Part shown: piece after piece, positions 19,663 to 31,950 of the stretch | Layout of the letters: each line of letters starts with the position of its first letter | Position numbering within the stretch: the first letter of the stretch is position 1 | Source of the DNA: a virus | Reading direction: 5' to 3' (one strand) | DNA: 32,055 nt | Virus record (IMG/VR): IMGVR_UViG_3300043409_000891 | Span: 1 to 32,055 of that record | Program-made: the position numbers and the translations under genes | Notes under the pieces: generated by a model | Told to the model about the DNA's origin: nothing | Seen by the model: the letters and a program-made list of their open reading frames with translations, nothing else | Database searches by the model: none

Positions 19663-19976
19663 GGAGGAGATCCTGTAGTGGGTATGTACGCAGTGTACCA
19701 TGTACTAATAGCGGGTACGAAGCTCTCGTAGAAAGTACGACCTTAGAAAAATAGAAAAAAATTTGCGACGTAGGCATCTACTATCATAGGGCGAGGGCCC
19801 ACTGTGTCCCGGTGGGGGGCCCTCGGGGCCATGGCCGTTCCGTAGGCGGCGAGGGGGGATACTACTATCACCGGGCTGGCTCTGTGGGAGTAGACTGCGC
19901 CGGAGTAGGCTAGTACAATGAACTTGTTGGACGTGGAACCCGGACACGACAAACCGGGCTCGATAGGACCGATACC
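19663..19976. other. Divergent control region between leftward and rightward genes
   Basis: About 310 bases without a gene. It contains AT-rich runs (about 19745-19764), a hairpin with 8-bp arms GAGGGCCC / GGGCCCTC (19793-19800 and 19817-19824), CTACTATCA boxes near 19778 and 19862, two GGAGTAG boxes (19888-19894 and 19903-19908), and a rightward promoter (19891-19919). No leftward promoter with good -35 and -10 boxes could be picked out, so leftward transcription may use another signal or start elsewhere. Confidence 0.6.
19891..19919 (+). promoter_or_regulatory. Sigma-70-like promoter for the first paralogue
   Basis: TAGACT (19891-19896), 17 bases, then TACAAT (19914-19919). The -35 matches TTGACA at four of six bases and the -10 matches TATAAT at five of six. 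The bases after the -10 (GAACTTGTTGG) align with those after the second paralogue's promoter (GTACTTGTTGG), so both starts descend from one duplicated control segment. Two GGAGTAG-type boxes overlap the -35 and spacer. Confidence 0.65.
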
Positions 19977-20594
19977 ATGACTGCAACAATCCCTACCGTA
20001 AACCGCGACCCGGCGATTGGCGACCTGTTCGCCTCGGTCGTTAAGGTCGACGCATCGCTGAACTCGAAACTGGGCGAACTCGCCCAGTCCCTTGCGGACC
20101 AAGTTTCGGGATTCGACCTTCCGCATGCGTCGAAGCTTTCCCTGCTCGAATCGGCTTACAGCGCCGATTTTAAGCTTCTCGCCGTGAACAGGAACACGGT
20201 CGCGAGTCTGCGGGCCCTGCTGGTCGCCAAGGTCGCAGGCAACGAACTGGTCGAAGTCTCGGCCCCGTCGACCGATGGAAAGAAAGCCGGAATCAGCAAA
20301 CCCGCGAACATCCTGTCCGCCGGAGAAGCGAAAAAGCTTTCGGCGCAGATCAAGCAACAGATGGTTGAGGCGGAGCGGAGCCCGGAGGAGGAGGCCCGCG
20401 CCGAGGCCCTCGCCAAAAGCATGAAAGCGGCGGCGCAAAAGGTCGCCAACGATGCGGCGACCAAGGCGGTCGCCGAGTTTCAGGAAAAGGCCATGGCATT
20501 TGCGGTCTCCGAACCCGCTCGCGTGAAACTGGTCGAAGCGCTGGCGGCGCAAGGCTTCAAGATCATGAAAGACTCCAAGGCTCCGGCCAAGTAA
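19977..20594 (+). CDS. Paralogue A, alanine/lysine-rich early protein of unknown function
   Basis: This 205-residue, mostly helical protein has blocks shared with paralogue B at 20911: DASLN-KLGELA, FDLP-ASKL-LLESAY-ADFK, NRNTVASLRA, VAG--LVEV-APS-DGK, EAERSPEE-ARAEAL and SMKAAAQ. A charged linker around residues 100-150 suggests two helical domains. No known domain is recognised and there is no membrane segment. It is a one-gene transcription unit with a sigma-70 promoter before it and a strong terminator after it, which suggests early, high expression. Codon choice differs from B (more TCG and GCG here), so the copies are old or came from different sources. Confidence 0.8.
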   Translation: MTATIPTVNRDPAIGDLFASVVKVDASLNSKLGELAQSLADQVSGFDLPHASKLSLLESAYSADFKLLAVNRNTVASLRALLVAKVAGNELVEVSAPSTDGKKAGISKPANILSAGEAKKLSAQIKQQMVEAERSPEEEARAEALAKSMKAAAQKVANDAATKAVAEFQEKAMAFAVSEPARVKLVEALAAQGFKIMKDSKAPAK

Positions 20595-20649: not shown

Positions 20650-20727
20650 CAGCCCCGTGATAGTAGTCCACGCCCCGCCCCCATGCTGCAGCGCACCAAT
20701 GCGCCCCCCACTACTATCACGGGGCTG
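20650..20727. repeat. 18-bp perfect inverted repeat, CTACTATCAC family
   Basis: CAGCCCCGTGATAGTAGT at 20650-20667 is the exact reverse complement of 20710-20727, with 42 bases between. The right arm recurs as a direct copy at 19861-19879 with one mismatch, and shorter relatives (CTACTATCA) lie near 19778 and 21585. It directly follows the terminator, so it may be a regulator site or the remains of the duplication that made the two paralogues. Confidence 0.75.
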
Positions 20728-20734
20728 GCCGCGC

Positions 20735-20749
20735 TACTCCAATGGAGTA
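20735..20749. promoter_or_regulatory. TACTCCA-A-TGGAGTA palindrome
   Basis: Two perfect 7-base arms around one base. It is the cleanest copy of the palindrome family dispersed through the centre and right arm, and lies about 65 bases upstream of the -35 of paralogue B. Its position ahead of a promoter suits an operator, though the family also supplies GGAG ribosome sites elsewhere. Confidence 0.5.
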
Positions 20750-20778
20750 CGCTCTACTCCACCCACCCGGAGCGGGAT

Positions 20779-20804
20779 ACGTACGTTACGTACGTAACGT
20801 ACGT
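20779..20804. promoter_or_regulatory. 26-bp perfect palindrome upstream of promoter B
   Basis: The 26 bases are fully self-complementary and built from ACGT/GTAC steps (central part ACGTTACGTACGTAACGT). The palindrome ends ten bases before the -35 box of the paralogue B promoter. A site of this size and position is expected for a dimeric or tetrameric regulator. No equivalent is seen before promoter A. Confidence 0.6.
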
Positions 20805-20814
20805 TGTGCCCCTG

Positions 20815-20843
20815 TTGACAGGTAACGTATAGCATGGTAGAAT
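20815..20843 (+). promoter_or_regulatory. Sigma-70 promoter for paralogue B
   Basis: A perfect TTGACA (20815-20820), 17-base spacer and TAGAAT (20838-20843). The transcript should start near 20850, where TTGGCTC-GAT-GAGCCAA (20851-20867) forms a perfect 7-bp hairpin at its 5' end, a feature that can stabilise mRNA. Confidence 0.85.
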
Positions 20844-20889
20844 GTACTTGTTGGCTCGATGAGCCAAACGGCCACCCACCGACTGGGCT

Positions 20890-20905
20890 TACTACACTGG
20901 AGTAG
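20890..20905 (+). promoter_or_regulatory. TACTACACTGGAGTAG box acting as ribosome site
   Basis: The box contains GGAG (20899-20902) eight bases before the ATG of paralogue B. The same 16-mer occurs at 21618-21633 (no gene follows closely) and 22847-22862 (before a TTG start), and with one change at 24842-24857. Confidence 0.6.
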
Positions 20906-20910
20906 CTACC

Positions 20911-21525
20911 ATGAGCACAATCCCGAGCGTTACCCGCAACGAACTGATCGCAGGCATTTTCGCTGCGGCCACCAATCTGGACGCTAGCCTAAACGAGAAG
21001 CTGGGAGAACTGGCCAGCATTCTGGCCGCAGAGGTTGCCCCGTTCGACCTCCCGCTGGCCAGCAAGCTGGCGTTGCTCGAAAGCGCGTACGCGGCCGACT
21101 TCAAGAAGATGTCGGCCAATCGCAACACAGTAGCCAGCCTCAGGGCCGCGCTGACCTGTAAAGTTGCTGGCGGTATGCTGGTGGAAGTCAAGGCACCCAG
21201 CAAGGACGGCAAAGCTGGTGCCGTGCTCAAGCCTGCGGACAAGCTGTCAGTGGGTGAGGCGAAGAAGTTCGCTGCCACCGTCAAGTCGGATGCAGCCGAA
21301 GCAGAACGCAGCCCCGAGGAAGCTGCACGTGCCGAAGCCCTTGAGCGTTCCATGAAAGCCGCAGCGCAAGAGGTCAGCAACAAGCTGGCCACAGCGGTAG
21401 CGCAAGCCAAAGCCGAAGAGGCGTTCGCGTATGTCCTCCACGACGCGCAACGCGCCACGCTGGTGGCGAAGCTGGCCGCTGTTGGGTACAAGCTGGCGAA
21501 GCTGACCACGGCACCCACCAAGTAG
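20911..21525 (+). CDS. Paralogue B, alanine/lysine-rich early protein of unknown function
   Basis: The 204-residue product is alignable with paralogue A along its whole length. Blocks DASLNEKLGELASILAAEVA, FDLPLASKLALLESAYAADF, NRNTVASLRAALTCKVAGG, AERSPEEAARAEALERSMKA and AAQEVSNKLA correspond one to one. Between the shared blocks the helices keep length but not sequence. It has its own consensus promoter, a 26-bp palindrome upstream, and its own terminator. The function is unknown; soluble and helical, it could be a host-takeover or nucleic-acid-associated protein, but no motif decides. Confidence 0.8.
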   Translation: MSTIPSVTRNELIAGIFAAATNLDASLNEKLGELASILAAEVAPFDLPLASKLALLESAYAADFKKMSANRNTVASLRAALTCKVAGGMLVEVKAPSKDGKAGAVLKPADKLSVGEAKKFAATVKSDAAEAERSPEEAARAEALERSMKAAAQEVSNKLATAVAQAKAEEAFAYVLHDAQRATLVAKLAAVGYKLAKLTTAPTK

Positions 21526-21541
21526 TTCCCACCAACCTAGC

Positions 21542-21570
21542 AGCCCCGGGCAATCCCCGGGGCTTTTTTT
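21542..21570 (+). terminator. Strong intrinsic terminator after paralogue B
   Basis: AGCCCCGGG (21542-21550) pairs perfectly with CCCGGGGCT (21556-21564) around a five-base loop, followed by a run of seven T. It lies 16 bases after the stop codon. Confidence 0.9.
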
Positions 21571-22291
21571 CGCCCGCACACCCTCTACTATCACCAAGCT
21601 GCCCAGACAGGCATATTTACTACACTGGAGTAGACTCTACTACACACTAAAGGCCAGTGGGATACGTATCGGGCCAAGTGTCAACAAATATGTAGTGGGC
21701 TCAAGCACTTAGCGTTTTTAGTGTCAACATACTTACACCAAGCTTACACACTGGGGTAGGATCTACGGCCCACTAATGGCTAGTAGAATGGGCGAAAGCC
21801 CGAAACGTAGACTGGCGCATACTAGATCTATTATAAATAGAAAGTACGGAGCGTGAAAAGACGCTGTAAGTCGTTGATTACGCAGCAAGTGCCAACTCAA
21901 CCCGGCAGAAAGTGCCACTGACATCCAGAGATGTCAAGAAAAACGCAATGAAACCAACGAGATGCAACCGCAGGTGTCAACTTGCTATACTTGTACATGT
22001 ACATGTACATCAATATCGTGGCGTGTACGGGGGTGACACTGATCCGTACTGCCAGCAACATTTTTCGTATCTCCCCTAACTTCTCCGTTACGCAAAGATT
22101 TCTCTCTCGCCCAAAAAGGTGACAAGTTGACACTTTTCGCGGAATGATTCTCATTACGCTCGTAGCCCGTTGTTTCCTTACGTACTTTCCAATAGCCTAC
22201 AAGTGTCAAGGTTATTAGCGTTTTTGACACCTGCGTTGACACTTTTACTTTCTACTCGTCACTAGCTCCCTCCACCAACTAAGTGCCCCTA
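21571..22291. other. Gene-free, AT-richer region with iterons and palindromes (candidate origin/control region)
   Basis: About 720 bases where no reading frame has a ribosome site or protein-like composition. It holds a TACTACACTGGAGTAG box (21618-21633), GATACGTATC (21661-21670), seven GTGTCAA-type boxes, a hairpin TGACATC-CAGA-GATGTCA (21919-21936), CTATT-ATA-AATAG (near 21828-21840), and TGTACA three times in tandem (21992-22009). The AT content is higher than in the genes. The combination of directly and inversely placed short boxes with an AT-rich stretch is what replication origins and multi-operator regions look like. Confidence 0.5.
21678..22242. repeat. Seven GTGTCAA / TTGACAC iteron-like boxes
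   Basis: Forward copies GTGTCAA(C/G): 21678-21685, 21721-21728, 21974-21981, 22203-22210. Reverse copies (G/T)TTGACAC: 22126-22133, 22223-22230, 22235-22242. Several share the longer form AAGTGTCAAC or GTTGACACTTTT. Spacing is irregular. The reverse form contains a TTGACA, so some copies could also serve as -35 boxes, but no well-placed -10 follows them. Confidence 0.6.
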
Positions 22292-22320
22292 TTGACTTTT
22301 ACTAACCTTTGTGGTATAAT
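22292..22320 (+). promoter_or_regulatory. Near-consensus sigma-70 promoter for the RNA region and right arm
   Basis: TTGACT (22292-22297), 17-base spacer, TATAAT (22315-22320). Five of six and six of six matches make this the strongest -10 in the window. Transcription should begin near 22327, at the start of a 500-base segment with no convincing protein gene. No terminator is evident before the rightward operon, so it may also feed the first genes. Confidence 0.85.
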
Positions 22321-22326
22321 GGTCTT

Positions 22327-22808
22327 AGACGCTGGGGAATTACACCAGCAAGAGTAGATGCTACTCCACTGTAGTATCTACGGCAGCACAGCAGGATGGT
22401 CTGGGATTCAGAGCTTGAGTCTGCAAGGGAAGCACTGGCAATACCGGAAAGCCCCACGCTGCAAGGTGGGTAGCTAGTACGGCGCGAATAACCGAGGGGA
22501 ATCCCCGAGGGCGCGAGGGCGGCAATAGCGCACAGAGATGCGATGCCCTGCAAAACAGAGACCTTGTGAGTTCGGGGTGGAGTAGCTTGCCGCACTGGAG
22601 TGCGGCGAAGCCCTGTAAGGACGACTGAACGAAGCCCCTGCTGGTACCAATATGTGGAGTAACTCCATGGCCAAGGCATGGTGGCTCACTGCCGCCTAAA
22701 CCTCATGGGGTTTCTGTGTGTGCCTTACTGCCAGCCGGTAGGGCCCGGCTCCGACGCAGACAAGCGCGAAGGGGAAGGCTCGGTAGGGCTCACACAGAAA
22801 CCGTACCA
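22327..22808 (+). ncRNA. Candidate large structured non-coding RNA
   Basis: No credible gene lies here, yet hairpins are dense: GCTGG/CCAGC (22331-22335, 22345-22349); an 11-bp stem GTAGATGCTAC/GTAGTATCTAC with six-base loop (22354-22381); CCCAC/GTGGG (22453-22470); GGGG-AAT-CCCC (22496-22506); GCCGCAC-TGGA-GTGCGGC (22589-22606); TGGAG-TAA-CTCCA (near 22645-22657); CCATG/CATGG (near 22656-22680); and a 12-bp long-range stem GGTTTCTGTGTG/CACACAGAAACC (22709-22720, 22791-22802), extended by GCC/GGC, that encloses AGCCGG/CCGGCT (22733-22750). It starts just after a strong promoter. I looked for the tmRNA, RNase P and group I intron core motifs and did not find them. Large ornate phage RNAs such as GOLLD or ROOL are possible relatives, untested. 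The 3' limit is uncertain. Confidence 0.45.
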
Positions 22809-22809
22809 T

Positions 22810-22862
22810 GCAGTACCGTACCCGGCGGACCCGGGGTTGCAGTACTTACTACACTGGAGTAG
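22810..22862 (+). repeat. Repeated leader element, copy 1
   Basis: Bases 22810-22832 (GCAGTACCGTACCCGGCGG and onward) match 24809-24831 almost exactly. Both continue through a CCCGG...CCGGGG hairpin and a GGTT into the TACTAC-ACTGGAGTAG box that supplies the Shine-Dalgarno of the next gene. The pattern suggests a shared promoter, processing hairpin or operator cassette ahead of two early gene groups. Confidence 0.6.
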
Positions 22863-22865
22863 AAC

Positions 22866-23030
22866 TTGAACAAACCGATCTACGAAGACGAGCGCAACTA
22901 CGGACGGGAGGCCCTCGCCATGGCGGCGTGGGTGTTCCTCGTGGTGTGGATGGTGGGGGTGTCGATGGCCGAGGAACCGTCGGGCGGTTGCTCGACGGAC
23001 ACAGAGTGCGAGGAGACGAGCCATGACTGA
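22866..23030 (+). CDS. Small single-pass membrane protein
   Basis: The 54-residue product begins at TTG (22866), six bases after the GGAG of the TACTACACTGGAGTAG box. The polar N-terminus MNKPIYEDERNYGRE is followed by one hydrophobic helix at about residues 17-34 (LAMAAWVFLVVWMVGVSM) and an acidic tail with two Cys (GGCSTDTECEE). It is the first gene of the rightward operon and overlaps the next by eight bases. A small inner-membrane early protein could act on host envelope functions or superinfection exclusion; nothing proves this. Confidence 0.6.
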   Translation: MNKPIYEDERNYGREALAMAAWVFLVVWMVGVSMAEEPSGGCSTDTECEETSHD

Positions 23031-23214
23031 GCAAGAAGTTACACAGGAGCACCTGACCTACCTCGACGCCCTGCGCGAGTCCGGGGTGACCAACATGTTC
23101 GGAGCAGGAGCGTACCTCCAACGCGAGTTCGGCGTCAGCCAGCGTGACGCCCGGTTCATCCTCCAGACGTGGATGGCCACGTTCGAGCAGCGCCACCCGG
23201 GAGGTGCGTCATGA
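23023..23214 (+). CDS. Small conserved phage protein
   Basis: The 63-residue product MTEQEVTQEHLTYLDALRES, then GVTNMFGAGAYLQREFGVSQ and RDARFILQTWMATFEQRH, matches a short phage family with an invariant LR-SG-TNMFGA-YL core and a helix-turn-helix-like second half (FGVSQRDARFILQTWM). It follows the membrane protein with an eight-base overlap and joins the next gene by ATGA. It is possibly a small DNA-binding or adaptor protein; the family is unnamed to me. Confidence 0.65.
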   Translation: MTEQEVTQEHLTYLDALRESGVTNMFGAGAYLQREFGVSQRDARFILQTWMATFEQRHPGGAS

Positions 23215-23399
23215 CCCCCAAGGCCAAGCGCAAGTACACACCACCGAACGACTGGATGCGGGGTCAGTCGACCGCTGCGCTGTTCAAGTGCCTGTTCAAA
23301 GACCTTGAACTTCTGCGGTCGGGGGACTGGATACCGAACGACTACAGCGTTGACTGCACCATCGACGTGCTGAAGGAAATCAAGCGGAGGACGACGTGA
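23211..23399 (+). CDS. Small basic protein of unknown function
   Basis: This 62-residue protein starts at the ATG overlapping the previous stop (ATGA). The N-terminus is basic (MTPKAKRKYTPPNDWMRGQS), followed by two predicted helices (TAALFKCLFKDLELLRSGDW and CTIDVLKEIKRRTT). There is no known motif. It is read in the same coupled operon, with GTGA overlap into the next gene. Confidence 0.55.
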   Translation: MTPKAKRKYTPPNDWMRGQSTAALFKCLFKDLELLRSGDWIPNDYSVDCTIDVLKEIKRRTT

Positions 23400-23725
23400 C
23401 CACCAAGGCCGACATCATCCGCAAGCACTGCGCCGCCCACGGTCTGCCGTTCGTCGACCAGCAGCAGGTCCAGTTTGTGGCCAAGAAGTACAAGAGGGCC
23501 GCTCTGGAGGTGCTGCTGGGCATGCACCCTACTCCACTGGAGAAGCTGGACGAGCGCGACTGGGTGATCCTCCGTGCCATGAGGCTGGCGCACAGGTTCA
23601 ACGGCGACGGTGGGGACAACACGGTGGAGTACACCAAGCTCCTCGCGTGGCTGCGGGACAGGTACGGCTTGGTCCTGATCGCTGACGCGTGTGCGCTGAT
23701 AGCCGCAGAGCGGGCGAAGCCATGA
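23396..23725 (+). CDS. Small helical protein of unknown function
   Basis: The 109-residue product starts at GTG overlapping the preceding TGA. Predicted helices run through ADIIRKHCAAHGLPFVDQQQ VQFVAKKYKR, TPLEKLDERDWVILRAMRLA and YTKLLAWLRDRYGLVLIADA. No domain is recognised. Part of the DNA near 23527 reads CCTACTCCACTGGAG, a copy of the dispersed palindrome kept inside coding sequence. The stop overlaps the next ATG. Confidence 0.6.
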   Translation: MTTKADIIRKHCAAHGLPFVDQQQVQFVAKKYKRAALEVLLGMHPTPLEKLDERDWVILRAMRLAHRFNGDGGDNTVEYTKLLAWLRDRYGLVLIADACALIAAERAKP

Positions 23726-24333
23726 CTCCCCAAGAAGCCCAGATGGTCGACGCCCTTCGTGCCTTGGAGGGGCGCGAGTGGTACTCGTTCGACGAGTTGT
23801 CCGACGCGGGGCAGAAGCACGCCGTGCGTGCGTACGTGGATAACACTCAGGTCGAGCTAAGCACGGACTATGAGGAGGAGATACTCACGGAACTGGGGGT
23901 GGATGACGCCAGTATCTCGTGGTCCGGGTTTGGTAGTCAAGGCGATGGGGCCTCGTTCATCGGCAGCTACGCCTACTCCAGAGTAGTAAACAACGTCGGG
24001 AAGTACCCCGCTGGTGCGCTGGATGAGCTACGCCCCCTGTACAAGCAGCTGATCGCGCTGCAGCGTAGGCACCAGTGGCGGTTGTGTGCCAACATCGAGC
24101 GGAGGACCAGCCGGTACTACCACGAACATACCGTGGACATTAACGTGTACCGCACGGATGATAAGGACGTGCCGGAGGACGTGGCTACGCAGCTTGGCGA
24201 CATCCTGCGGGGCTTCATGCGCTGGGTGTACCGTAGCTTGGAGAAGGAGTGGGACTACCAGACCGGAGAGGGTGCAGTGGAGTACTTGCGCAACTGCTAC
24301 GACCAGTACGACGAGCAGGGGCATTTGCTGTGA
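23722..24333 (+). CDS. Conserved phage protein with SGFGSQGDGASF motif
   Basis: The 203-residue product starts at the ATGA overlap. The N-terminus ALEGREWYSFDELSDAGQKH AVRAY is followed by ILTELGVDDASISWSGFGSQ GDGASFIGSY. This WSGF-SQGDGASF block is a hallmark I recall from phage early proteins labelled only as conserved, sometimes as antitoxin-like. A beta-rich C-terminal half holds RYYHEHTVDINVYR, and a last helix with EKEWDYQTGEGAVEYLR. No catalytic motif is clear. A CTACTCCAGAGTAG palindrome lies inside the gene near 23969. Confidence 0.6.
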   Translation: MTPQEAQMVDALRALEGREWYSFDELSDAGQKHAVRAYVDNTQVELSTDYEEEILTELGVDDASISWSGFGSQGDGASFIGSYAYSRVVNNVGKYPAGALDELRPLYKQLIALQRRHQWRLCANIERRTSRYYHEHTVDINVYRTDDKDVPEDVATQLGDILRGFMRWVYRSLEKEWDYQTGEGAVEYLRNCYDQYDEQGHLL

Positions 24334-24689
24334 GCCGTAGGCATGGGGCGGCACGTTCTCCCCTACCCCCTGTGATGGCCCAAGTTCTGCACGGCTGGCG
24401 GGGGTTGGACGTGGCCGAGGCCGAGGCCGAGGCCGTCGACGTGACACGTGTGCCCGTAGAACCTACCATCGTGCTGGACGGCATGACGCGCCCGAGCAAG
24501 GCTGGCCTCACGGCGCTGCGCCGGGACGCGCAGGTGGCCGTAGCCAAGAGGCTGCTGGCAGGGGATAACCACTTCCGCACGCAACAGGACTACGAGTCGT
24601 ACTTTGCCTGCGAGATAGCGAAAGAGATGCTCAGGTTGATCGAGCGGGAGTTCCCACCGGAAACACACTGGAAGGAGGACGTGCCATGA
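24330..24689 (+). CDS. Small protein with Ala-Glu repeat, unknown function
   Basis: The 119-residue product starts at GTG (24330) overlapping the TGA of the gene before (GTGA), with AGGGG eight bases upstream. A (GCCGAG)n microsatellite near 24415-24433 codes for AEAEAEA. The C-terminal half is helical and charged (ALRRDAQVAVAKRLLAGDNH ... YFACEIAKEMLRLIEREFPP). No family was recognised. It is the last gene of the first sub-operon; about 170 bases and a repeated leader element follow before the next gene. Confidence 0.55.
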   Translation: MSRRHGAARSPLPPVMAQVLHGWRGLDVAEAEAEAVDVTRVPVEPTIVLDGMTRPSKAGLTALRRDAQVAVAKRLLAGDNHFRTQQDYESYFACEIAKEMLRLIEREFPPETHWKEDVP

Positions 24690-24808
24690 AGTAAGAAAGC
24701 CCAACCACGGGCCACACGAAACCCACTCCGGGAGCGTACTCTACGTGGGCGGATTGGCATCTAGGGGTCGTCTAACGCAGTTGGTGCAGACCCGTAGTAC
24801 GCAGCACC

Positions 24809-24857
24809 GCAGTACCGTACCCGGCGGACCCCGGGGTTCATTACTACACAGGAGTAG
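24809..24857 (+). repeat. Repeated leader element, copy 2
   Basis: Near-copy of 22810-22862, with one extra C in the CCCC run and four bases deleted before TTACTACACAGGAGTAG. It precedes the 279-residue DUF3150-like gene with AGGAG six bases before its ATG. Confidence 0.6.
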
Positions 24858-24860
24858 ATC

Positions 24861-25700
24861 ATGAGTCTGAAGGACAAGTGCATGTTGGTGAGTCTGTCCA
24901 TTGGCAAGCCGCAGATGACGGCCAAGGACAAGCAGGCGACGACCGAGGTTGCGGTCGACAAGCACGCCACGGAGGACGTGGTGGCGGTGACCAAGAAGCT
25001 GTACCCCAAGCACATGCTCAAGCCCATCCTGCACGCGGAGACGGCGGCGAGGTCTTACCTCAAGAGTGTGACCGAGCCGAGGGGCCCCGGGCTGGGCGTG
25101 CTGCCCTCCAAGCTGTTCATGGAGTTCCACCCGAAGATGGGCGAGTTCCGCGTTGGGTTCTTCCAAGCGGTGACGGTGTTCCTCAACAACTACTCCAGTG
25201 TATTGGCCATCGCACAGAGCCAGCAGGGGTCGATGTTCGAGCACAACACGTACCCGGACGTGAGCCAGTTGCGTTCGGAGTTCTCGTTCGACGTGTTGTA
25301 CCCGTCTCTGGAATCAGCGGGCAACATCACCCTGCAGATGGAGGCCGAGGGCCTCGCCGTCTACCGCAAGGAGATCGAGGCGCAGACCAACGTCAACCAA
25401 TCGGCACGGCAGAAGATGCTGTTCGGTAGGTTGGGAGAGGCGGTCAAGCGCATCAGTGTCCAGTGCGGCAAGGAGGATGGTAAGATTTACGACACGCTGA
25501 CCAGCAACCTCGACGACATGCTGCGCATCCTCCCCGCGCTCAACTTCGACGACGACCCTGTGTTCAACGCGGTGTGCGTGGATGCCCGCAAGCTGCTGGT
25601 GGCACCGCAAGCGATACGCACCGTGCCCGAGGTGCGCCAGACCGTGGCGTCTACGGCCGATGAGATCCTCGCCAAGATGGCCGCAGCGGGGTTCGCATGA
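24861..25700 (+). CDS. DUF3150-like partner of the MoxR/VWA module
   Basis: This 279-residue helical protein starts MSLKDKCMLVSLSIGKPQMT. It contains VTKKLYPKHMLKPILHAETA ARSYLKS, LPSKLFMEFHPKMGEFRVGF, LRSEFSFDVLYPSLESAGNI, LFGRLGEAVKRISVQCGKED and LTSNLDDMLRILPALNFDDD. I associate this domain with DUF3150 proteins that travel with MoxR-type ATPases and VWA proteins, though the name is from memory. It likely forms the third component of the module whose ATPase and VWA subunit follow. There is no enzyme motif. The start is set by the AGGAG inside the TACTACACAGGAGTAG box. Confidence 0.6.
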   Translation: MSLKDKCMLVSLSIGKPQMTAKDKQATTEVAVDKHATEDVVAVTKKLYPKHMLKPILHAETAARSYLKSVTEPRGPGLGVLPSKLFMEFHPKMGEFRVGFFQAVTVFLNNYSSVLAIAQSQQGSMFEHNTYPDVSQLRSEFSFDVLYPSLESAGNITLQMEAEGLAVYRKEIEAQTNVNQSARQKMLFGRLGEAVKRISVQCGKEDGKIYDTLTSNLDDMLRILPALNFDDDPVFNAVCVDARKLLVAPQAIRTVPEVRQTVASTADEILAKMAAAGFA

Positions 25701-25915
25701 TTGACCCCGCTGTCCCGCAGTGCATTCTCATCGTGGGGACGCAGCACCTGCTGATGCCGCAGGAGGATGCGTTCAACCTGTTCCGCAAGCTGCGGGACGC
25801 TACGGCGCTTGACTCCCACTACGGTGCTAAATACACTGTAGATACTACTAAAGCGGAGCTTCGCATTGCGTCGCTCAGCCCCACCGCGCTGGCTGCGATT
25901 CTGTTGGCGGAGTGA
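25697..25915 (+). CDS. Small protein of unknown function
   Basis: The 72-residue product starts at the ATG overlapping the previous stop. It shows a strand-rich start (AVPQCILIVGTQHLLMPQED), one helix (AFNLFRKLRDATALD) and a beta end. ACTGTAGATACTAC inside its DNA resembles the dispersed palindrome. No family was recognised; it is probably co-translated with the DUF3150-like gene. Confidence 0.5.
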   Translation: MIDPAVPQCILIVGTQHLLMPQEDAFNLFRKLRDATALDSHYGAKYTVDTTKAELRIASLSPTALAAILLAE

Positions 25916-26100
25916 TGGAGTTCACGTACAAGGTGGAGTTGGCGGAGTTTCACCGGATGCCCCGGGTCAGTACGTCGGCTCGATGGGTAACCGTGTCGTA
26001 CGGGTGGTTCAACTGGGTGTACTTCAGGGACGTACCCGCCCCCAGTGATACCGCCCGCGCAGTAGCAATGACTAAGGCATTGTTGCAGCTGGACGCATGA
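25912..26100 (+). CDS. Small protein of unknown function
   Basis: The 62-residue product starts at GTG (25912), overlapping the previous TGA, or at the ATG directly after it (25915). A beta-rich N-terminus (EFTYKVELAEFHRMPRVSTS), an aromatic patch (WFNWVYFRDVP) and a C-terminal helix (DTARAVAMTKALLQLDA) are visible. No domain is recognised. It is the last gene before the palindrome and the MoxR gene. Confidence 0.5.
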   Translation: MMEFTYKVELAEFHRMPRVSTSARWVTVSYGWFNWVYFRDVPAPSDTARAVAMTKALLQLDA

Positions 26101-26128
26101 CCTTCCCCGAAGGGTTTCGGGTTAACCA

Positions 26129-26145
26129 CTACTCCATGGGAGTAG
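26129..26145. promoter_or_regulatory. CTACTCC-ATG-GGAGTAG palindrome before the MoxR gene
   Basis: Two perfect 7-base arms around three bases, lying 17 bases before the ATG of the AAA+ gene. The gene's own Shine-Dalgarno is a separate AGGAG (26151-26155), so here the palindrome is not needed for ribosome binding. That favours a regulatory role for the family. Confidence 0.55.
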
Positions 26146-26161
26146 ACGATAGGAGTTACGA

Positions 26162-27208
26162 ATGAAGATCGAGTGGATTGCAGAAGAACTGGTGGAGAAC
26201 TACAACAACCTCCACCGTCGTCGTCGCACGATGTTCCTGCTGGGGCCCTCTGGTGTGGGCAAGTCGGACAGCATCCGTGAAGCGGCAGCGACACTGTCCT
26301 CGCAGTACAAGTGCGCTGTACCGGTGCTCGACAAGCGGCTCAGCCAGATGGAGCCGCCGGACTTCGGTGGAGTACCCAGCGTGGTGAACGGCCGGACGGT
26401 GAAGAACGTGCCGGACTGGTGGCCCTCCGACCCCGACAGCCGTGGCATCCTGCTGTTGGACGAGATCACGAGCGCCCCGCCCGTGATGCAGGCTGCGGCA
26501 TACGAGGTGGCGTTGGACCTCAGCATGGGCGGTGAGCCCCTGCCTGAAGGCTGGATGGTCGTGGCTGCGGGTAACCGTGCGTCTGACCGTGGTGTCACCT
26601 ACCCGTTGGCAGCACCCCTGCTGGCACGGATGACCGTGGTGACCGTGGAGTCGAGCCTCGATGGGTTCGTCGCGTACTGCGGCAAGCACAACGTACGTGG
26701 CGAGATTGTCGCGTTCGTGAAGAGCCGTGGCGAGTACCTCAACGAGCGCGACGAGACGATCAACACCAAGATCGCGGAGTTGCCCATCGGCAAGCCGTTC
26801 AGTAACCAACGTGCTTGGACTACGGCAGCGCAGTACTACCTCGACAGCCCGGTAGAGCGGCGGTTGGAGTTGATGCGCGGCAGTGTGGGGGACCGTGCTG
26901 CTACCGACCTAGAAGTGTTCTTGCGTATCTGGCAGACCATGCCCTCCATCGACGCGATCTTCAAGGACCCTGACTCCGTGGATACTCCAAAGGATGCAGC
27001 TACACGTTACGCTGTGTCGGTGGGGATCGCGGTGCGCCTGACGGCGACGAACTTTGCCATGGCCAAGAAGTACTTCGACCGGCTCCCGGGCGAGTTCAAG
27101 GCACTAACGGTGAAGCTCGCCTACAAGCGCGACAACACCATCGCGGAGTGCGCGGCGTTCGCTGAGTTCGTGGCGGAGAACCCCGAGTTGTGGAAGAGGG
27201 GGGCCTGA
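26162..27208 (+). CDS. MoxR-family AAA+ ATPase
   Basis: This 348-residue ATPase has Walker A GPSGVGKS at residues 28-35, Walker B ILLLDE at 96-101, sensor-1 Asn in AAGNRASD (Asn138) and an Arg in LLARM (about 156) as arginine-finger candidate. Its closest family is the MoxR/CobS-like chaperone ATPases, which remodel or activate protein complexes using a partner VWA protein. The expected VWA partner is at 27868. The DUF3150-like gene precedes it. AGGAG-TTACGA stands before the ATG. The target complex is unknown. Confidence 0.88.
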   Translation: MKIEWIAEELVENYNNLHRRRRTMFLLGPSGVGKSDSIREAAATLSSQYKCAVPVLDKRLSQMEPPDFGGVPSVVNGRTVKNVPDWWPSDPDSRGILLLDEITSAPPVMQAAAYEVALDLSMGGEPLPEGWMVVAAGNRASDRGVTYPLAAPLLARMTVVTVESSLDGFVAYCGKHNVRGEIVAFVKSRGEYLNERDETINTKIAELPIGKPFSNQRAWTTAAQYYLDSPVERRLELMRGSVGDRAATDLEVFLRIWQTMPSIDAIFKDPDSVDTPKDAATRYAVSVGIAVRLTATNFAMAKKYFDRLPGEFKALTVKLAYKRDNTIAECAAFAEFVAENPELWKRGA

Positions 27209-27209
27209 C

Positions 27210-27491
27210 ATGAAACGAGGCACTGTACGCGCCGTGTTCGAGGATGGCGCTCCTCCTGAACACCTCACCGGCTATATCGTCCCCTGCCCTGCGCACCCCC
27301 GGTACGCGTTCGTGGTGGCAAAGCACGAGGGATGGTGGCGGGTGTCGGAGGTGTACACCGGCGCACGAGTGAGCGAGGTTCAGAAGACCCGGGCCGACGC
27401 AGTCTGTGCATTCCACACCCGCATGGAGGGCGTCAGCGCCGCGTCCCTCGGTGCTGCGGTGGCGAAGAGACTTCTGGGGGACGCCGCATGA
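27210..27491 (+). CDS. Small protein of unknown function
   Basis: The 93-residue product starts MKRGTVRAVFEDGAPPEHLT, followed by strand-rich PRYAFVVAKHEGWWRVSEVY TGARV and a helix AASLGAAVAKRLLGDAA. The ATG follows the MoxR stop by one base, and its own stop overlaps the next gene by ATGA. No family was recognised. Being sandwiched between the ATPase and the VWA gene makes it a candidate accessory of that module. Confidence 0.5.
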   Translation: MKRGTVRAVFEDGAPPEHLTGYIVPCPAHPRYAFVVAKHEGWWRVSEVYTGARVSEVQKTRADAVCAFHTRMEGVSAASLGAAVAKRLLGDAA

Positions 27492-27847
27492 AGAAGACTA
27501 CGTTCACCAAGGCGTTGAAGTTCTCTGAGTCGCGTAAGGGCGGGGTAAACACCCGTTCCGGCTACCCCGGGTACCTGCTCGAACACCCCGCCGTGCCGTA
27601 CGGGTCGGTAGTGGTCGGCAGGGGGAGCAAGCGGGATATGGATCGGGCCTTGGGGTACTCGCTTACCAACTACTGGGTGGCGTACGACCCTGTGACTGGT
27701 TGCCGTATCTACGGCGGTGCACGGTATACCACCCGTGACCGGCTAGTGGCCGAGTTGACTTACACGCTGAACCGCCGCCCAGAATCATTGCAGGAAGAAC
27801 TACGCCGGGCCGCAACCATAAACGCAAAGGCTATGTTGTCCGCTTAA
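27488..27847 (+). CDS. Protein of unknown function inside the MoxR/VWA operon
   Basis: The 119-residue product starts at the ATGA overlap. It begins MKKTTFTKALKFSESRKGGV and contains GYPGYLLEHPAVPYGSVVVG, then SLTNYWVAYDPVTGCRIYGG and ARYTTRDRLVAELTYTLNRR. Predicted beta-rich middle and a C-terminal helix. No family was recognised. Coupling and position suggest a role with the ATPase/VWA pair. The following gap holds CTACTCCATTGGAGGTA, a variant of the dispersed box that serves as ribosome site of the VWA gene. Confidence 0.5.
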   Translation: MKKTTFTKALKFSESRKGGVNTRSGYPGYLLEHPAVPYGSVVVGRGSKRDMDRALGYSLTNYWVAYDPVTGCRIYGGARYTTRDRLVAELTYTLNRRPESLQEELRRAATINAKAMLSA

Positions 27848-27867
27848 CTACTCCATTGGAGGTAACT

Positions 27868-29097
27868 ATGAATCACGAGCAAAGGCTGGATATTGCAGCG
27901 GCGAAGCTGGCCATTCGCCAACCGTTTATCGCCACGATCTTTAGCGGGTTGCGGCGCGAGATATCCGACACCGTACCTACGGCGGCGGTGAAGGGAATGC
28001 ACCTGCGGTTTAACCCGCTGTTCATGGACGTGCTGGACGACGAGGAGCTGCTGTTCGTAGCAGCACATGAGGCGATGCACCCAGCGTTGCTTCACTCATA
28101 CAGGGTGGGCGACAGGCAACCGGGGCTGTGGAATACGGCGGCAGACGCCACGATCAACCCACAGTTGATTGAGTCGGGGTTGAAGATGCCTGTGTGGGAT
28201 GACAAGAAGTTTGCGATGTTCCCCGAAGCCAAGGCGGAGGGGAAGAAGAAGGGGGACCCCTTCGGTGTGCTGATCGACTGGGTGAAGGGCGACATGGACT
28301 CGGAAGTCGTGTACCAGAAACTTATCGAAGAGCAGGAGAAGAAGGAGAAGGACAAGCCCGAGGACGGCAGCGGTGACGGCAGCGGTGACGGTGACCCGAA
28401 GGGAGGGTGGGGTAACTCCGGGGATCTGGAAGCCGCTGATGGCGCGGGGGGTGAGGGAGATGCGCAGTCCGAGGCAGAGGTCCGTGTGTTGGTGTCTCAA
28501 GCTGCCCGCACGGCGTTCGCTTCGGGGGACAAGTCCGCTCTCATACAGCGTATCTTGGGTGTGTGCAGTCAGTCGGACACGGACTGGAAGGACGAGACGC
28601 GTTCGATGATGACCGAGTCATCGCGCAATGACTACTCGTACCGCCGGTTCTCTCGTCGGTTCCTGTACACGGGTGTCTACCTGCCCTCACTGTGGTCGGA
28701 GAGTCTGGGTACGCTGGGTGTGGGTATCGACACGTCCGGGTCCATGACCGAGAGCCAGCTGGCAGCTATCGAGAAGAACCTTCGCATCATCATCGAGGAC
28801 TGCGCCCCCGACCGGGTCATCGTCGTCTACTGTGATGCAGAGATCAACAAGACGGTCGTCTTCGAGAAGGGCGAGGAGCTTGTGCTGGAGATGTGCGGCG
28901 GTGGCGGCACCGACATGCGGAAGATTACGGACTACTTCAGTGGAGTAGAGGAGCGACTGGCCGGGGTGATTGTGTTCACTGACCTGTACACGCCGTTCCC
29001 TACGGTCGAGCCCGACTACACGCTGTTGTGGGGTGCGGTCAACGCGGACCGGAGCACGAAGCCGCCGGTTGGGCGCAGGGTTGAGGTGAAGGTATGA
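27868..29097 (+). CDS. VWA-domain protein with N-terminal metallopeptidase-like domain
   Basis: The 409-residue product (ATG 27868, GGAGG five bases upstream) is the likely partner of the MoxR ATPase. Residues 64-72 read VAAHEAMH, an HExxH zinc-type motif (His68, Glu69, His72), as in the putative metallopeptidase domain that precedes DUF2201-type VWA regions. A Lys/Glu stretch and Gly-rich, Asp-rich linker (about 150-200) separates it from the VWA domain. MIDAS elements there are DTSGS (288-292), GGGTDM (345-350) and FTDLY (370-374). MoxR-VWA pairs activate or remodel protein or metal-cofactor complexes; the target in this phage is unknown. Length is normal for the family. Confidence 0.88.
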   Translation: MNHEQRLDIAAAKLAIRQPFIATIFSGLRREISDTVPTAAVKGMHLRFNPLFMDVLDDEELLFVAAHEAMHPALLHSYRVGDRQPGLWNTAADATINPQLIESGLKMPVWDDKKFAMFPEAKAEGKKKGDPFGVLIDWVKGDMDSEVVYQKLIEEQEKKEKDKPEDGSGDGSGDGDPKGGWGNSGDLEAADGAGGEGDAQSEAEVRVLVSQAARTAFASGDKSALIQRILGVCSQSDTDWKDETRSMMTESSRNDYSYRRFSRRFLYTGVYLPSLWSESLGTLGVGIDTSGSMTESQLAAIEKNLRIIIEDCAPDRVIVVYCDAEINKTVVFEKGEELVLEMCGGGGTDMRKITDYFSGVEERLAGVIVFTDLYTPFPTVEPDYTLLWGAVNADRSTKPPVGRRVEVKV

Positions 29098-29396
29098 GCG
29101 CCGTGATTATGCCCCGGCATGTGGGGGCCAACATGATCGAGATGCAATACCCCGACGAGGCCCTCGTGCTGTTTAGCTACGGGACACCCGTGGCTGCGTG
29201 GATACGGGGGCCCGATAGGTTCCTGCGTACAACTGCTAAACACAGCAACACAACGGGGCGGCACATCGCCAAGTGGTTCCGGCTGTTCGGGGTCGCTAGT
29301 CCCCAACTGATCCCGCAGGAGTACATCGACGCCCTCGCATCATGTAGTCCAAAGGTATGGGCGTTACGAGATGCAATCAAAGAACTAGGAGCATGA
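29094..29396 (+). CDS. Small conserved phage protein (DUF8033-like)
   Basis: The 100-residue product starts at the ATGA overlap with the VWA gene. FSYGTPVAAWIRGPDRFLRT and the tight KHSNTTGRHIAKWFR block (S-TT-rHI-kW) are typical of a small phage family that I remember as DUF8033, usually in early regions. The second half has PQEYIDALASCSPKVWALRD. The role is not known. It ends two bases before the next ATG, with GGAG ahead of it. Confidence 0.6.
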   Translation: MSAVIMPRHVGANMIEMQYPDEALVLFSYGTPVAAWIRGPDRFLRTTAKHSNTTGRHIAKWFRLFGVASPQLIPQEYIDALASCSPKVWALRDAIKELGA

Positions 29397-29397
29397 C

Positions 29398-29667
29398 ATG
29401 GAACAAAAAGACGTAAGGGCGCTGTTCGAACGTGTTCAGCGTATCGAGGCCCGCATGGTCCGGGGCTTCACGGAGTTGGGTGTGGTCGTAACAGATGACG
29501 ACGGATGGTGTCGCATCGACCATGGGAAGTACACGGTCCACCTCAAAGGCGGGGGGAAGAGCTTCAAGGCGGTGCAGATCGCCCTTCTCAACGACGGGGC
29601 CCGGACCGGGGATGTGTACGAAGTGTCCGTCGCGGGTGTCCGCGTCGGTTCAGTCATCGCACTCTAA
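29398..29667 (+). CDS. Small protein of unknown function
   Basis: The 89-residue product has a helical N-terminus (EQKDVRALFERVQRIEARMV) and a beta-rich C-terminal half (TVHLKGGGKSFKAVQIALLN, DVYEVSVAGVRVGSVIAL). CTAGGAGCATGAC precedes the ATG. No family was recognised. The compact helix-plus-strand layout suggests a small binding domain. Confidence 0.55.
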   Translation: MEQKDVRALFERVQRIEARMVRGFTELGVVVTDDDGWCRIDHGKYTVHLKGGGKSFKAVQIALLNDGARTGDVYEVSVAGVRVGSVIAL

Positions 29668-29690
29668 CTAAAAAACTAGGAGCACTACAA

Positions 29691-30020
29691 ATGGACCAAG
29701 CAGAGATGTTGTCCCTCTTCGGGGGGATGTACGACAAGCTGGTGAACGACGTGGCAGCGAAGGTGATCTCGTTGCAGACCCAGAACAACGGGCTGGACAC
29801 GCTCAAGGAGCACATCGCGGAAGCCGTGAAGGCGCAGATCGGCACCGACATTGAGGACGCCGTGCGTGACTACGATTTCAGCGATGCAGTCGACAGCGCT
29901 ATGTCGGACTTCGACTTTGGGCTGGACGACGTCGTCAGCGAGTACCTCTCCGGGCGCACCGGCAAAGACGCCCTGAAAGACGCGCTCCGGTCGTGCGACT
30001 TCACCGTGTCCGTATCGTAA
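29691..30020 (+). CDS. Acidic helical protein of unknown function
   Basis: The 109-residue product starts at ATG 29691 with CTAGGAGCACTACA upstream; longer frames lie over the previous gene and are unlikely. It begins MDQAEMLSLFGGMYDKLVND and continues with a helix VISLQTQNNGLDTLKEHIAE and an Asp-rich region with YDFSDAVDSAMSDFDFGLDD (DFDF-type repeats). Strong negative charge is typical of DNA-mimic or protein-inhibitor phage proteins, but no family was recognised. Confidence 0.55.
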   Translation: MDQAEMLSLFGGMYDKLVNDVAAKVISLQTQNNGLDTLKEHIAEAVKAQIGTDIEDAVRDYDFSDAVDSAMSDFDFGLDDVVSEYLSGRTGKDALKDALRSCDFTVSVS

Positions 30021-30043
30021 GAACAAACCACAAGGAGCGTCAC

Positions 30044-30658
30044 ATGAAACGCAAATCCCCACGAAGTGTTTTCACTACGGCCGTACTATCATTCATCCGG
30101 CTTAACGGAGGGAGCAACGTGCTCAACGTCCATGCAGGATTTCCGGACGTCACTATCAAGGCCGTATCCAACAGCTTGTCGTCGCTGTGGAATGGAAATT
30201 ACCTAACCCGCGTCAAGGGGGTGACGAAGAACGTCAGCGGTCAGACCCTGTACGACTACACGGCTAAAACCATCGCACCCAAGCGGGCCAAGCCAGTCCT
30301 GTTGTGGAAAGACATTATCGCTGTCACCCCAGAGGAAGACGAAGCGATGAGCAAACTAGCGATGAACATAGACGCCCACTCCTCTGGGCATCAGTTTGAT
30401 ATACCCAAGTCCATCCTCGACGAAGCCCAAGAGATCATCTACGGCGACCGTGAGAAAACCTACGGGGCCCCGGACAAGAACCTCAAGATGATCGGTGACC
30501 TGTGGGCTGCATACAGTGGAGTACCGTTCACTGCCGAGGATGTGTGCAACATGATGATCTTGCTGAAGGTGGCACGCCTCGCTAACGACCCCAAGCACCG
30601 CGACAGTCAGGTTGACCTGTGCGGTTACGCGGCACTCATGGAGAGGATACAGAAATGA
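30044..30658 (+). CDS. Winged-helix-like N-terminus plus DUF6378-like C-terminus
   Basis: The 204-residue product starts at ATG 30044 behind AAGGAGCGTCAC. The first ~80 residues look like a winged helix: FTTAVLSFIRLNGGSNVLNV, a second helix VTIKAVSNSLSSLWNGNYLT and a wing RVKGVTKNVSGQTLYDYT. The last ~90 residues read SILDEAQEIIYGDREKTYGA, DLWAAYSGVPFTAEDVCNMM and LLKVARLANDPKHRDSQVDL CGYAALMERI. This is the phage DUF6378 signature (YGDRE-YG ... WAAY ... K-aRL ... D-vDl-GYaal). Combining a DNA-binding domain with DUF6378 is notable. The function is unknown. Confidence 0.7.
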   Translation: MKRKSPRSVFTTAVLSFIRLNGGSNVLNVHAGFPDVTIKAVSNSLSSLWNGNYLTRVKGVTKNVSGQTLYDYTAKTIAPKRAKPVLLWKDIIAVTPEEDEAMSKLAMNIDAHSSGHQFDIPKSILDEAQEIIYGDREKTYGAPDKNLKMIGDLWAAYSGVPFTAEDVCNMMILLKVARLANDPKHRDSQVDLCGYAALMERIQK

Positions 30659-30897
30659 AAATTAACGGGCAGCAAGTAGAGGGTGCGGAGTTTGCCTTTG
30701 ATTCTTGCCACAAAATTTATGTGTGCGAAACCAAGGACGACAGGGAGGCTGCTGAAGAGTGTGATTACGAGATACACCCGGTAGAAGCTATCGAGACCGC
30801 TTACGACGGTAGCTGCCCCCTGAGATTCATCAGTAATTGGGGTTTGACTAAACATTACGTCAGACAAAGTGAACACGCTGTTTTTGAGGAGGTGTGA
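30655..30897 (+). CDS. Small acidic protein of unknown function
   Basis: The 80-residue product starts at the ATGA overlap. It has four Cys (SCHKIYVC, EECDY, SCPLRF) and many Glu/Asp residues, with a C-terminal WGLTKHYVRQSEHAVFEEV. Cys spacing does not form a clear zinc finger. It is expressed in the coupled operon; the next gene has GAGGAGG seven bases upstream, inside this gene's end. Confidence 0.5.
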   Translation: MKINGQQVEGAEFAFDSCHKIYVCETKDDREAAEECDYEIHPVEAIETAYDGSCPLRFISNWGLTKHYVRQSEHAVFEEV

Positions 30898-30898
30898 G

Positions 30899-31126
30899 AT
30901 GAAAGAAACCCTGAACTGGGGTGACCTACGCGTCCTCGGGCGCACCGACAAAGGGGGGCGGTGGTTCCCAAACCCCAATATAGCGGAGTACTTCAACTCC
31001 ATCCGGAGTCCGTCCCGTGCGTGGCCTCACAGTTACGCCCGAGCCGCGCAAACTAGCAAATTTGCCAACTGGCTGTTTGATAATCGGGCGGAGTTGGCTC
31101 AACGATTTTTTAAGGAACTGAAATGA
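30899..31126 (+). CDS. Small basic protein of unknown function
   Basis: The 75-residue product starts at ATG 30899 behind GAGGAGGTGTGAG, the best ribosome site in this stretch. It is rich in Trp, Arg and Asn: LNWGDLRVLGRTDKGGRWFP, then YFNSIRSPSRAWPHSYARAA and a C-terminal helix FANWLFDNRAELAQRFFKEL. No family was recognised. It overlaps the next gene by ATGA. Confidence 0.5.
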   Translation: MKETLNWGDLRVLGRTDKGGRWFPNPNIAEYFNSIRSPSRAWPHSYARAAQTSKFANWLFDNRAELAQRFFKELK

Positions 31127-31299
31127 CCGTCAAATTAAACAAGGCGCACCGCGAAGACGCGGACGCTCTAAGGGCGCTGTTCCGTAAGTGGATGAACAAA
31201 CCCAGCTTGTCGTCAGTGCAGGCCCACGAGGATTGGGACGCGGAGTTTGCCGAGTCCGTCATCGTTGTGATGACGCTACAAGAACTGGAGATGAAATGA
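31123..31299 (+). CDS. Small helical protein of unknown function
   Basis: The 58-residue product is charged and helical: KLNKAHREDADALRALFRKW, MNKPSLSSVQAHEDWDAEFA, ESVIVVMTLQELEMK. It starts and ends in ATGA overlaps (31123 and 31296), so it is clearly part of the translation-coupled chain. No motif is recognised. Confidence 0.5.
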   Translation: MTVKLNKAHREDADALRALFRKWMNKPSLSSVQAHEDWDAEFAESVIVVMTLQELEMK

Positions 31300-31628
31300 A
31301 AACGAGCGAACTGACAGGCACCGCTCTTGATTGGGCGGTGACGAAGTGCGAGGAAGTAAAGATCGGGCAGCCAGAGGGACGCACGTTTGCGTTCGAATGG
31401 TCGCTGATGCACGATGTAGGCGACATGATCTACTCAACCGACTGGGCGCAAGGTGGCCCGATCATTGAGCGGGAAGGGATCGGCATAGATCTCTGGGGCA
31501 ACGATAAATGGGTGGCGAATTACTGCGAAGCAGAACAGTACGGCCCCACGCCGCTGATCGCAGCCATGAGAGCGTTCGTTGCCAGCAAGTTGGGCGACGA
31601 GGTTGACGTACCGGAGGAACTGAAATGA
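31296..31628 (+). CDS. NinX-like protein (DUF2591)
   Basis: The 110-residue product starts MKTSELTGTALDWAVTKCEE, the clear signature of the DUF2591/NinX family of phage proteins (MKtseLtG-aLdwAVa). Later blocks YSTDWAQGGPIIEREGIGID LW and YGPTPLIAAMRAFVASKLGD also belong to it. NinX genes are part of early or middle operons of lambda-like phages, but their role is unproved. It overlaps both neighbours by ATGA. Confidence 0.8.
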   Translation: MKTSELTGTALDWAVTKCEEVKIGQPEGRTFAFEWSLMHDVGDMIYSTDWAQGGPIIEREGIGIDLWGNDKWVANYCEAEQYGPTPLIAAMRAFVASKLGDEVDVPEELK

Positions 31629-31816
31629 AACCAAGAACCCTGAAGACCAAGGTCAACCAGAAGACGGTGGACAAGATTACTGTTTTGGTTGATGCCATTG
31701 CGGATGACGCTTACTGTGTGGAGTGCAAGGGGGCTGAGATTGAGCAGTTCCTTATCAACACGGCTTGTAGGTTGCAGATGATCGAAGCCATTATCTATAC
31801 GAGGGCGCAGAAATGA
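31625..31816 (+). CDS. Small helical protein of unknown function
   Basis: The 63-residue product begins MKPRTLKTKVNQKTVDKITV and continues LVDAIADDAYCVECKGAEIE QFLINTACRLQM. It has an N-terminal basic helix, a CxxC pair (CVEC) in the middle and an amphipathic C-terminal helix. ATGA overlaps mark both ends. No family was recognised. Confidence 0.5.
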   Translation: MKPRTLKTKVNQKTVDKITVLVDAIADDAYCVECKGAEIEQFLINTACRLQMIEAIIYTRAQK

Positions 31817-31950
31817 AACCACAAGAAGCAATCCGCCGCGCAGAAAACATCGTGGCAAAACCATACCAGACATTCTCCACCGACGAGGCCCGAGAGATTA
31901 TGGCGGGGCTGTTGAAGGCGTTGGACGAGAAAGCACTGGAGGCGAAATGA
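31813..31950 (+). CDS. Small helical protein of unknown function
   Basis: The 45-residue product MKPQEAIRRAENIVAKPYQT, then FSTDEAREIMAGLLKALDEK ALEAK is two charged helices with a Pro-Tyr turn. The start (31813) and stop overlap neighbours by ATGA. It is short but well supported by coupling. Confidence 0.45.
   Translation: MKPQEAIRRAENIVAKPYQTFSTDEAREIMAGLLKALDEKALEAK

Follow-up and report, generated by a model that had tools for sequence, protein, structure and literature searches.

Palindromes dispersed through the early arm of a phage genome and replaced by others in its relatives: candidate distributed operators

In the viral record IMGVR_UViG_3300043409_000891 (32,055 nucleotides; this whole stretch is the window referred to below) a 15-bp dyad, TACTCCA-N-TGGAGTA, recurs through the early arm, and distant relatives carry palindromes of other sequence in like positions. 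The copies are probably double-stranded DNA sites, i.e. distributed operators, for a dimeric DNA-binding protein encoded by the phage, the most likely effect of which would be to damp or time early transcription. The observations behind this reading are the enrichment of the dyad, its symmetry, its bias to the early arm, the preservation of its arms between strains and its replacement in distant relatives.

With up to three mismatches allowed, the window has 13 copies against 0.76 expected, and none of 100 shuffled sequences reached 13. All 13 are to the right of position 19702, in the early arm, where copies with at most one, two and three mismatches number 8, 11 and 13 (0.01, 0.04 and 0.33 expected); the late arm has none at any of these thresholds. 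The original prediction, of a palindrome dispersed mainly through the early arm, had proposed a scan against shuffled sequence as its check, and the scan bears it out. Its remark that the late arm all but lacks GGAGTAG/CTACTCC is slightly overstated for the shorter words GGAGTA/TACTCC, which occur 6 times there and 26 times in the early arm. The centre base is C in 6 copies, G in 4, T in 2 and A in 1, so that the sites are unoriented, and a half-site variant, TACTACA, is likewise seen in both orientations (as the left arm of four copies and the right arm of the copy at 22362).

Eight intergenic copies had been placed correctly to within one base. A perfect copy (20735..20749; the −35 box at 20815 is about 65 bp downstream) and a TACTACA variant (21618..21632) lie in the control region, and a further copy (22362..22376) is at about +35 from a strong promoter, within the early leader; no gene directly follows any of these. 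Four copies supply a Shine-Dalgarno (SD) sequence: the TACTACA variant at 20890..20904 for gene 20911, another such variant at 22847..22861, the GGAG of which is the SD of a TTG-start open reading frame at 22866, and copies with two mismatches at 24842..24856 and 27849..27863 for a DUF3150-like gene (24861) and a DUF2201 gene (27868). The remaining intergenic copy (26130..26144, one mismatch) has its centre 25 bp before the ATG of an AAA-ATPase gene (26162) that has its own AGGAG; with the copy at 21618, which precedes no gene, it upholds the earlier argument that translation is insufficient to account for the set. Five more copies had been placed approximately. Four are sites within coding sequence, at 23530..23544 (one mismatch), 23974..23988 (two), 28933..28947 (one, within the DUF2201 gene) and 25191..25205 (three; a weak copy that may be chance), and the fifth, near 22577, is no full site: at 22588 there is a different hairpin, GCCGCAC-TGGA-GTGCGGC, with four mismatches to the motif and a GGAGTAG word nearby. 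A three-mismatch match at 26360, within the AAA-ATPase gene, may also be chance.

A second strain, G001 (IMGVR_UViG_3300021963_000339, 36811 bp), is about 97% identical to most of window positions 20716-31950 and 99% identical to positions 1-940, so that it continues the genome, which by this evidence is circular and measures about 56.6 kb. With up to three mismatches allowed G001 has 17 copies, and with up to two it has 14 in the early arm and one in the late. Over the eight non-coding sites the two strains differ at 0 of 112 arm bases and at 18 of 352 flanking bases, the single change within a site being at the free central base of the 20735 copy. The coding copies at 23974 and 28933 are kept in G001; that at 23530 is in a stretch missing from it. 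A third record (L057) has three sites in its early part.

Relatives were found through the terminase TerL (at least 44% identity, and 2 kb or more of sequence before terL), except for G001, which was found through the ATPase. The resulting set is the window, G001 and the distant relatives L013, L030, L031 and G007, whose TerL proteins are 44-69% identical; L009-L012, L028 and L029, in which no more than about 1 kb precedes terL, were excluded from the count. A dispersed palindrome family well above shuffled sequence is present in 6 of 6 qualifying records, and in the distant relatives it is of another sequence: TGTGACA-N-TGTCACA (6 copies) with TGTGAC-N2-GTCACA (3) in L013, TGGTAACGCGTTACCA (6) in L030, TGTTAACNGTTAACA (7) in L031 and TGGTTGCGCAACCA (14) in G007. 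Early and late sites number 9 and 0, 6 and 0, 7 and 0, and 12 and 2, respectively. The centre base leans in the L013 family only (T in 5, A in 1). No family was seen in L025, which is of the same species and is mainly late-arm DNA, nor in any of L032-L049, whose TerL proteins are at most 41% identical.

Placement is retained where sequence is not. The layout at gene starts is TGGTTGCGCAACCA-aggag...ATG in G007, GTTAACCGTTAACAA-ggaggcgtcATG in L031 and TGTGACATTGTCACA-taaactaaggag...ATG in L013 (one L013 copy adjoins GGAG), and throughout the four distant relatives the palindrome is mostly outside the SD, often directly upstream of the ribosome site. With control-region sites omitted, an SD plus start codon follows within 60 bp at 23 of the 43 sites of the six records against 10.2 for random positions, a count somewhat inflated in the window by the GGAG within its sites; without G001, since it and the window are not independent, the figure is 18 of 31 against 7.3. 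As the palindrome sequence is exchanged with its placement and geometry kept, the element is separate from the SD.

A wider circle includes Rhizobium phage RHph_TM3_14A (MN988472, isolated on Rhizobium), related in portal, TerL, capsid, polymerase, helicase, exonuclease and primase. Of its 34 TTACC-N5/6-GGTAA sites, 26 have the spacer N6 and 8 have N5, while N3, N4 and N7-N10 do not occur; 10 of the 34 are intergenic though intergenic DNA makes up 9.8% of its genome. When motifs were compared across 10 sequences at up to one mismatch, each was private to its lineage save for one match of the TM3 type in the window. A primase search gave 80 loci, and of the 60 of at least 10 kb that were scanned for palindrome families 10 were flagged, 8 being of GTTAC type (among them L103, as TTACCT-N4-AGGTAA); L086 and L131 were also flagged, and were discounted as G+C-rich words. 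The scan missed the loci of G001, L057 and G007 (L056, L057 and L060), since the DNA in these comes from the middle part of the early arm, where sites are sparse. A DNA search of phage records gave no near relative, and TerL alignment to bacterial genomes gave no convincing prophage (one 31-residue match).

The original prediction had offered, as an alternative to operators, an RNA element that both hides and presents GGAG. On this account the transcribed palindrome would control translation by forming a hairpin that overlaps or precedes the SD, as has been proposed for the start-associated sequences of Cluster K phages. The four SD-supplying copies and the start association of the sites are as it would have them, and the one-base spacer permits a 6-bp stem with a 3-base loop. 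However, sites in L013, L030, L031 and G007 being mostly outside the SD goes against it, as do the A-G mismatch that breaks the stem in four TACTACA copies, the mostly intragenic position of the RHph_TM3_14A sites and a symmetry that, in each of the five families in the clade of the window, extends to the centre. Under selection for an RNA stem, G-U pairs should be favoured. Read in transcript sense, the mismatched pairs in this clade are 10 G-U and 7 A-C, and those in RHph_TM3_14A are 22 G-U and 21 A-C; by this comparison, which is of modest power, there is no sign of RNA stems and nothing favours RNA. Control at the level of RNA is unlikely. The strict spacing of the half-sites points the same way: it is of one length or of two, and the two lengths differ by one base in L013 (N2/N3) and RHph_TM3_14A (N5/N6) and by two in G007 (N0/N2, one leader copy).

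The other alternative, a distributed operator system, is supported by the dyad symmetry, the early-arm limit, the strain-kept arms and the different but likewise placed palindromes of relatives. From these we infer binding by a protein, a phage origin for that protein and repression as the outcome. Operators spread across the early arm at intergenic and gene-start positions would serve in two ways. At two sigma70-type promoters the binder would act from nearby sites, and along the operon the bound protein would block the path of RNA polymerase, in the manner of a stoperator. The promoters, read from the sequence by eye and both on the + strand, are TTGACA-17-TAGAAT (20815..20843), for gene 20911, and TTGACT-17-TATAAT (22292..22320), for the early leader. 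Each relative has, between its arms, a gene here called gene X, accompanied in several by a terminator-like end, sigma70-type promoter sequences and a long leader, and palindromes are near the control-region promoters (in L031 about 8 bp separate the end of one site from the −35-like box that follows).

Gene X of the window (20911..21525, + strand, 204 amino acids) is, by its position, the best-placed candidate for the binder, and a tentative one. In the window, L013, L030, G007 and RHph_TM3_14A its protein has 167-302 amino acids. The divergence of these proteins, which is not evidence for binding, would fit a fast-evolving regulator; the best match between them is that of the window protein at 19977 with RHph_TM3_14A (E 0.0014, in a library of six), and the gene X protein of the window has no match among named phages. 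Its AlphaFold model, with a mean predicted local distance difference test (pLDDT) score of 70.7, has one uncharacterised viral match (2.2e-4). Homologues of the RHph_TM3_14A gene X are present in 5 of 25 records, which have 19, 8, 10, 2 and 7 GTTAC-N7/8-GTAAC sites, and in none of ten records chosen for their lack of sites (G020-G029, with 0-3 each); G011, G012, G014 and G015 have 11, 4, 7 and 8 sites and no gene X homologue, and kinship confounds the whole comparison.

Several results weigh against operators controlling early genes. Domain and profile searches did not find the binder: among 39 small proteins scanned against Pfam and PHROG there was no clear repressor, the best hint being HTH_23 in one protein at E 0.065. 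HTH_3, ParB_N and phage-integrase domains were not found in the window, G001 or G007, nor in L013, L030, L031 or RHph_TM3_14A, other recombinase and HTH families not having been searched genome-wide; in scans of 10 records HTH_3 and ParB_N were each found in 0 and integrase in 1 (G009, a distant relative). Gene X proteins belong to no Pfam family and have no detectable homology between relatives, only the window pair being homologous, and the model has no PDB match at E≤0.001. Most sites are away from promoters. In RHph_TM3_14A, 24 of the 34 sites are coding and both arms have them, which early-gene repression fits less well. Lastly, the more distant phages by TerL, Rollin, Ss1 and Y3, have no dispersed family. 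(In Pseudomonas phage Rollin AAAAGGTAGYAAGTTACTACCTTTT, or the reverse of it, does form one local cluster of five copies near the record ends, at L050 5-493 and the end of OR577172.) The suggestion that the system is as in some temperate phages also finds no backing: none of the three domains was found in the window or its 97% relative, and the sites are unoriented.

Some of these points would suit a different role, in the maintenance of phage DNA (partition, condensation, replication or packaging) and not in gene control. Sites away from promoters would be expected of it, and so would a genome-wide spread that includes coding DNA, as in RHph_TM3_14A and in Cluster O phages (PMC4351075). The early-arm limit and gene-start enrichment in the window's clade and the lack of ParB_N in all 10 records scanned make this rather improbable. 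Sites at which a phage-encoded activator or antitermination factor would turn on the early genes are less probable again: sites do precede genes, one of them in the early leader at about +35, but some are intragenic, and no sigma or activator gene was seen in the protein scans. That the palindromes are promoters for a virion RNA polymerase of N4 type, which resemble a 6-bp stem with a 3-base loop, is largely refuted, for although a 3163-amino-acid protein of G001 matches the PHROG 'virion RNA polymerase' (7e-17), its best stretch is confined to profile positions 2093-2249, the protein is without the polymerase motif set (RxxxK...YG and HD-type), the even palindromes of two relatives cannot form a symmetric 3-base loop, and host-type promoters are present.

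The profile match of that protein is partial, T7-like polymerase motifs were not found in it, and the virion RNA polymerase idea was dropped; the protein (L007 3195-12686, in the 97% relative) has a GHKL-ATPase domain and HExxH-like stretches. An early gene on the reverse strand (L008 4471-5019) matches the PHROG ferredoxin (4.7e-41).

The control region has further features. The gene before gene X (19977..20594, + strand) is its tandem paralogue (58% identical), and the two have similar intergenic modules, which looks like the duplication of a control module. Another repeat, CTA(A)CTATCA[TC], is at window positions 19778, 19862, 20658 (reverse), 20711 and 21585; there are 5 copies in the window, 3 in L030, 3 in L031 and 7 in G007, with 18 of 18 in the control region, and its sequence is kept across relatives that differ in palindrome, though it is absent from L013 and RHph_TM3_14A. 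An array of self-complementary words of TACGTA type (20778-20805) comes shortly before the −35 box at 20815. The leader after TTGACT-17-TATAAT (22324-22860) has no convincing open reading frame, and similar long leaders are present in relatives; its first 357 nucleotides fold more strongly than shuffled sequence (z −2.48), no Rfam family was found in it, and Rfam and tRNA scans of the window gave nothing. The stretch GCAGTACCGTACCCGGCGGACC(C)CGGGGTT is common to 22800-22846 and 24790-24841, in each case immediately before a palindrome (22847 and 24842).

The exchange of palindromes between relatives is an argument that the sites co-evolve with a protein that binds them as DNA. A bolder extension, possible though doubtful, is that these are apparently virulent phages with a fast re-coding operator system, in which each lineage would have a private palindrome and its own gene X regulator, with a predicted fold that has no solved relative, for control of early genes without lysogeny. 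If so, a private DNA code may also serve to exclude close competitors. Gene X provides a defined candidate, and RHph_TM3_14A an isolated phage in which the question can be tested.

As far as literature searches go, the palindrome family is undescribed: the only close descriptions found are of the systems of Cluster O, A and K phages, and RHph_TM3_14A is not named in the papers searched. A comparable arrangement is that of phiC31, a temperate phage of Streptomyces, the repressor of which binds conserved inverted repeats scattered in the early region; no open paper describing these repeats was found.

Cluster K start-associated sequences (SAS/ESAS; PMC3203893) are in the non-structural arm, a few bases from start codons, and have the SD as their core. 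The early-arm and gene-start placement seen here recalls theirs; unlike that fixed asymmetric 13-mer centred on AGGAG, the palindromes of the window's relatives are mostly without the SD. Cluster A stoperators (L5 and Bxb1; PMC6550527, PMC9283540) are 13 bp, asymmetric and oriented, and the HTH repressor of these temperate phages binds them as a monomer. Here too sites are numerous, few are at promoters and specificity diverges among relatives, but the site of the window is an unoriented 15-bp dyad and neither an HTH_3 repressor nor a phage integrase was found; on the best reading the palindromes would work like a distributed operator set, yet not as members of the Cluster A stoperators. The closest described case is that of the Cluster O (Corndog) phages (PMC4351075), in which a 17-bp dyad of one sequence in five close phages has 34 copies genome-wide, hardly oriented and of unknown function, for which its authors infer dimeric binders and consider control of transcription initiation unlikely. 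Shared with it are many short dyads with arms of about 7 bp, a short free centre, a partly intergenic location, little orientation and no integrase. In place of more than 30 copies over both arms, there are here 13-17, nearly all early, associated with starts and replaced between relatives, so that scattered dyads, known from mycobacteriophages, now have an array of the same kind in a different phage group.

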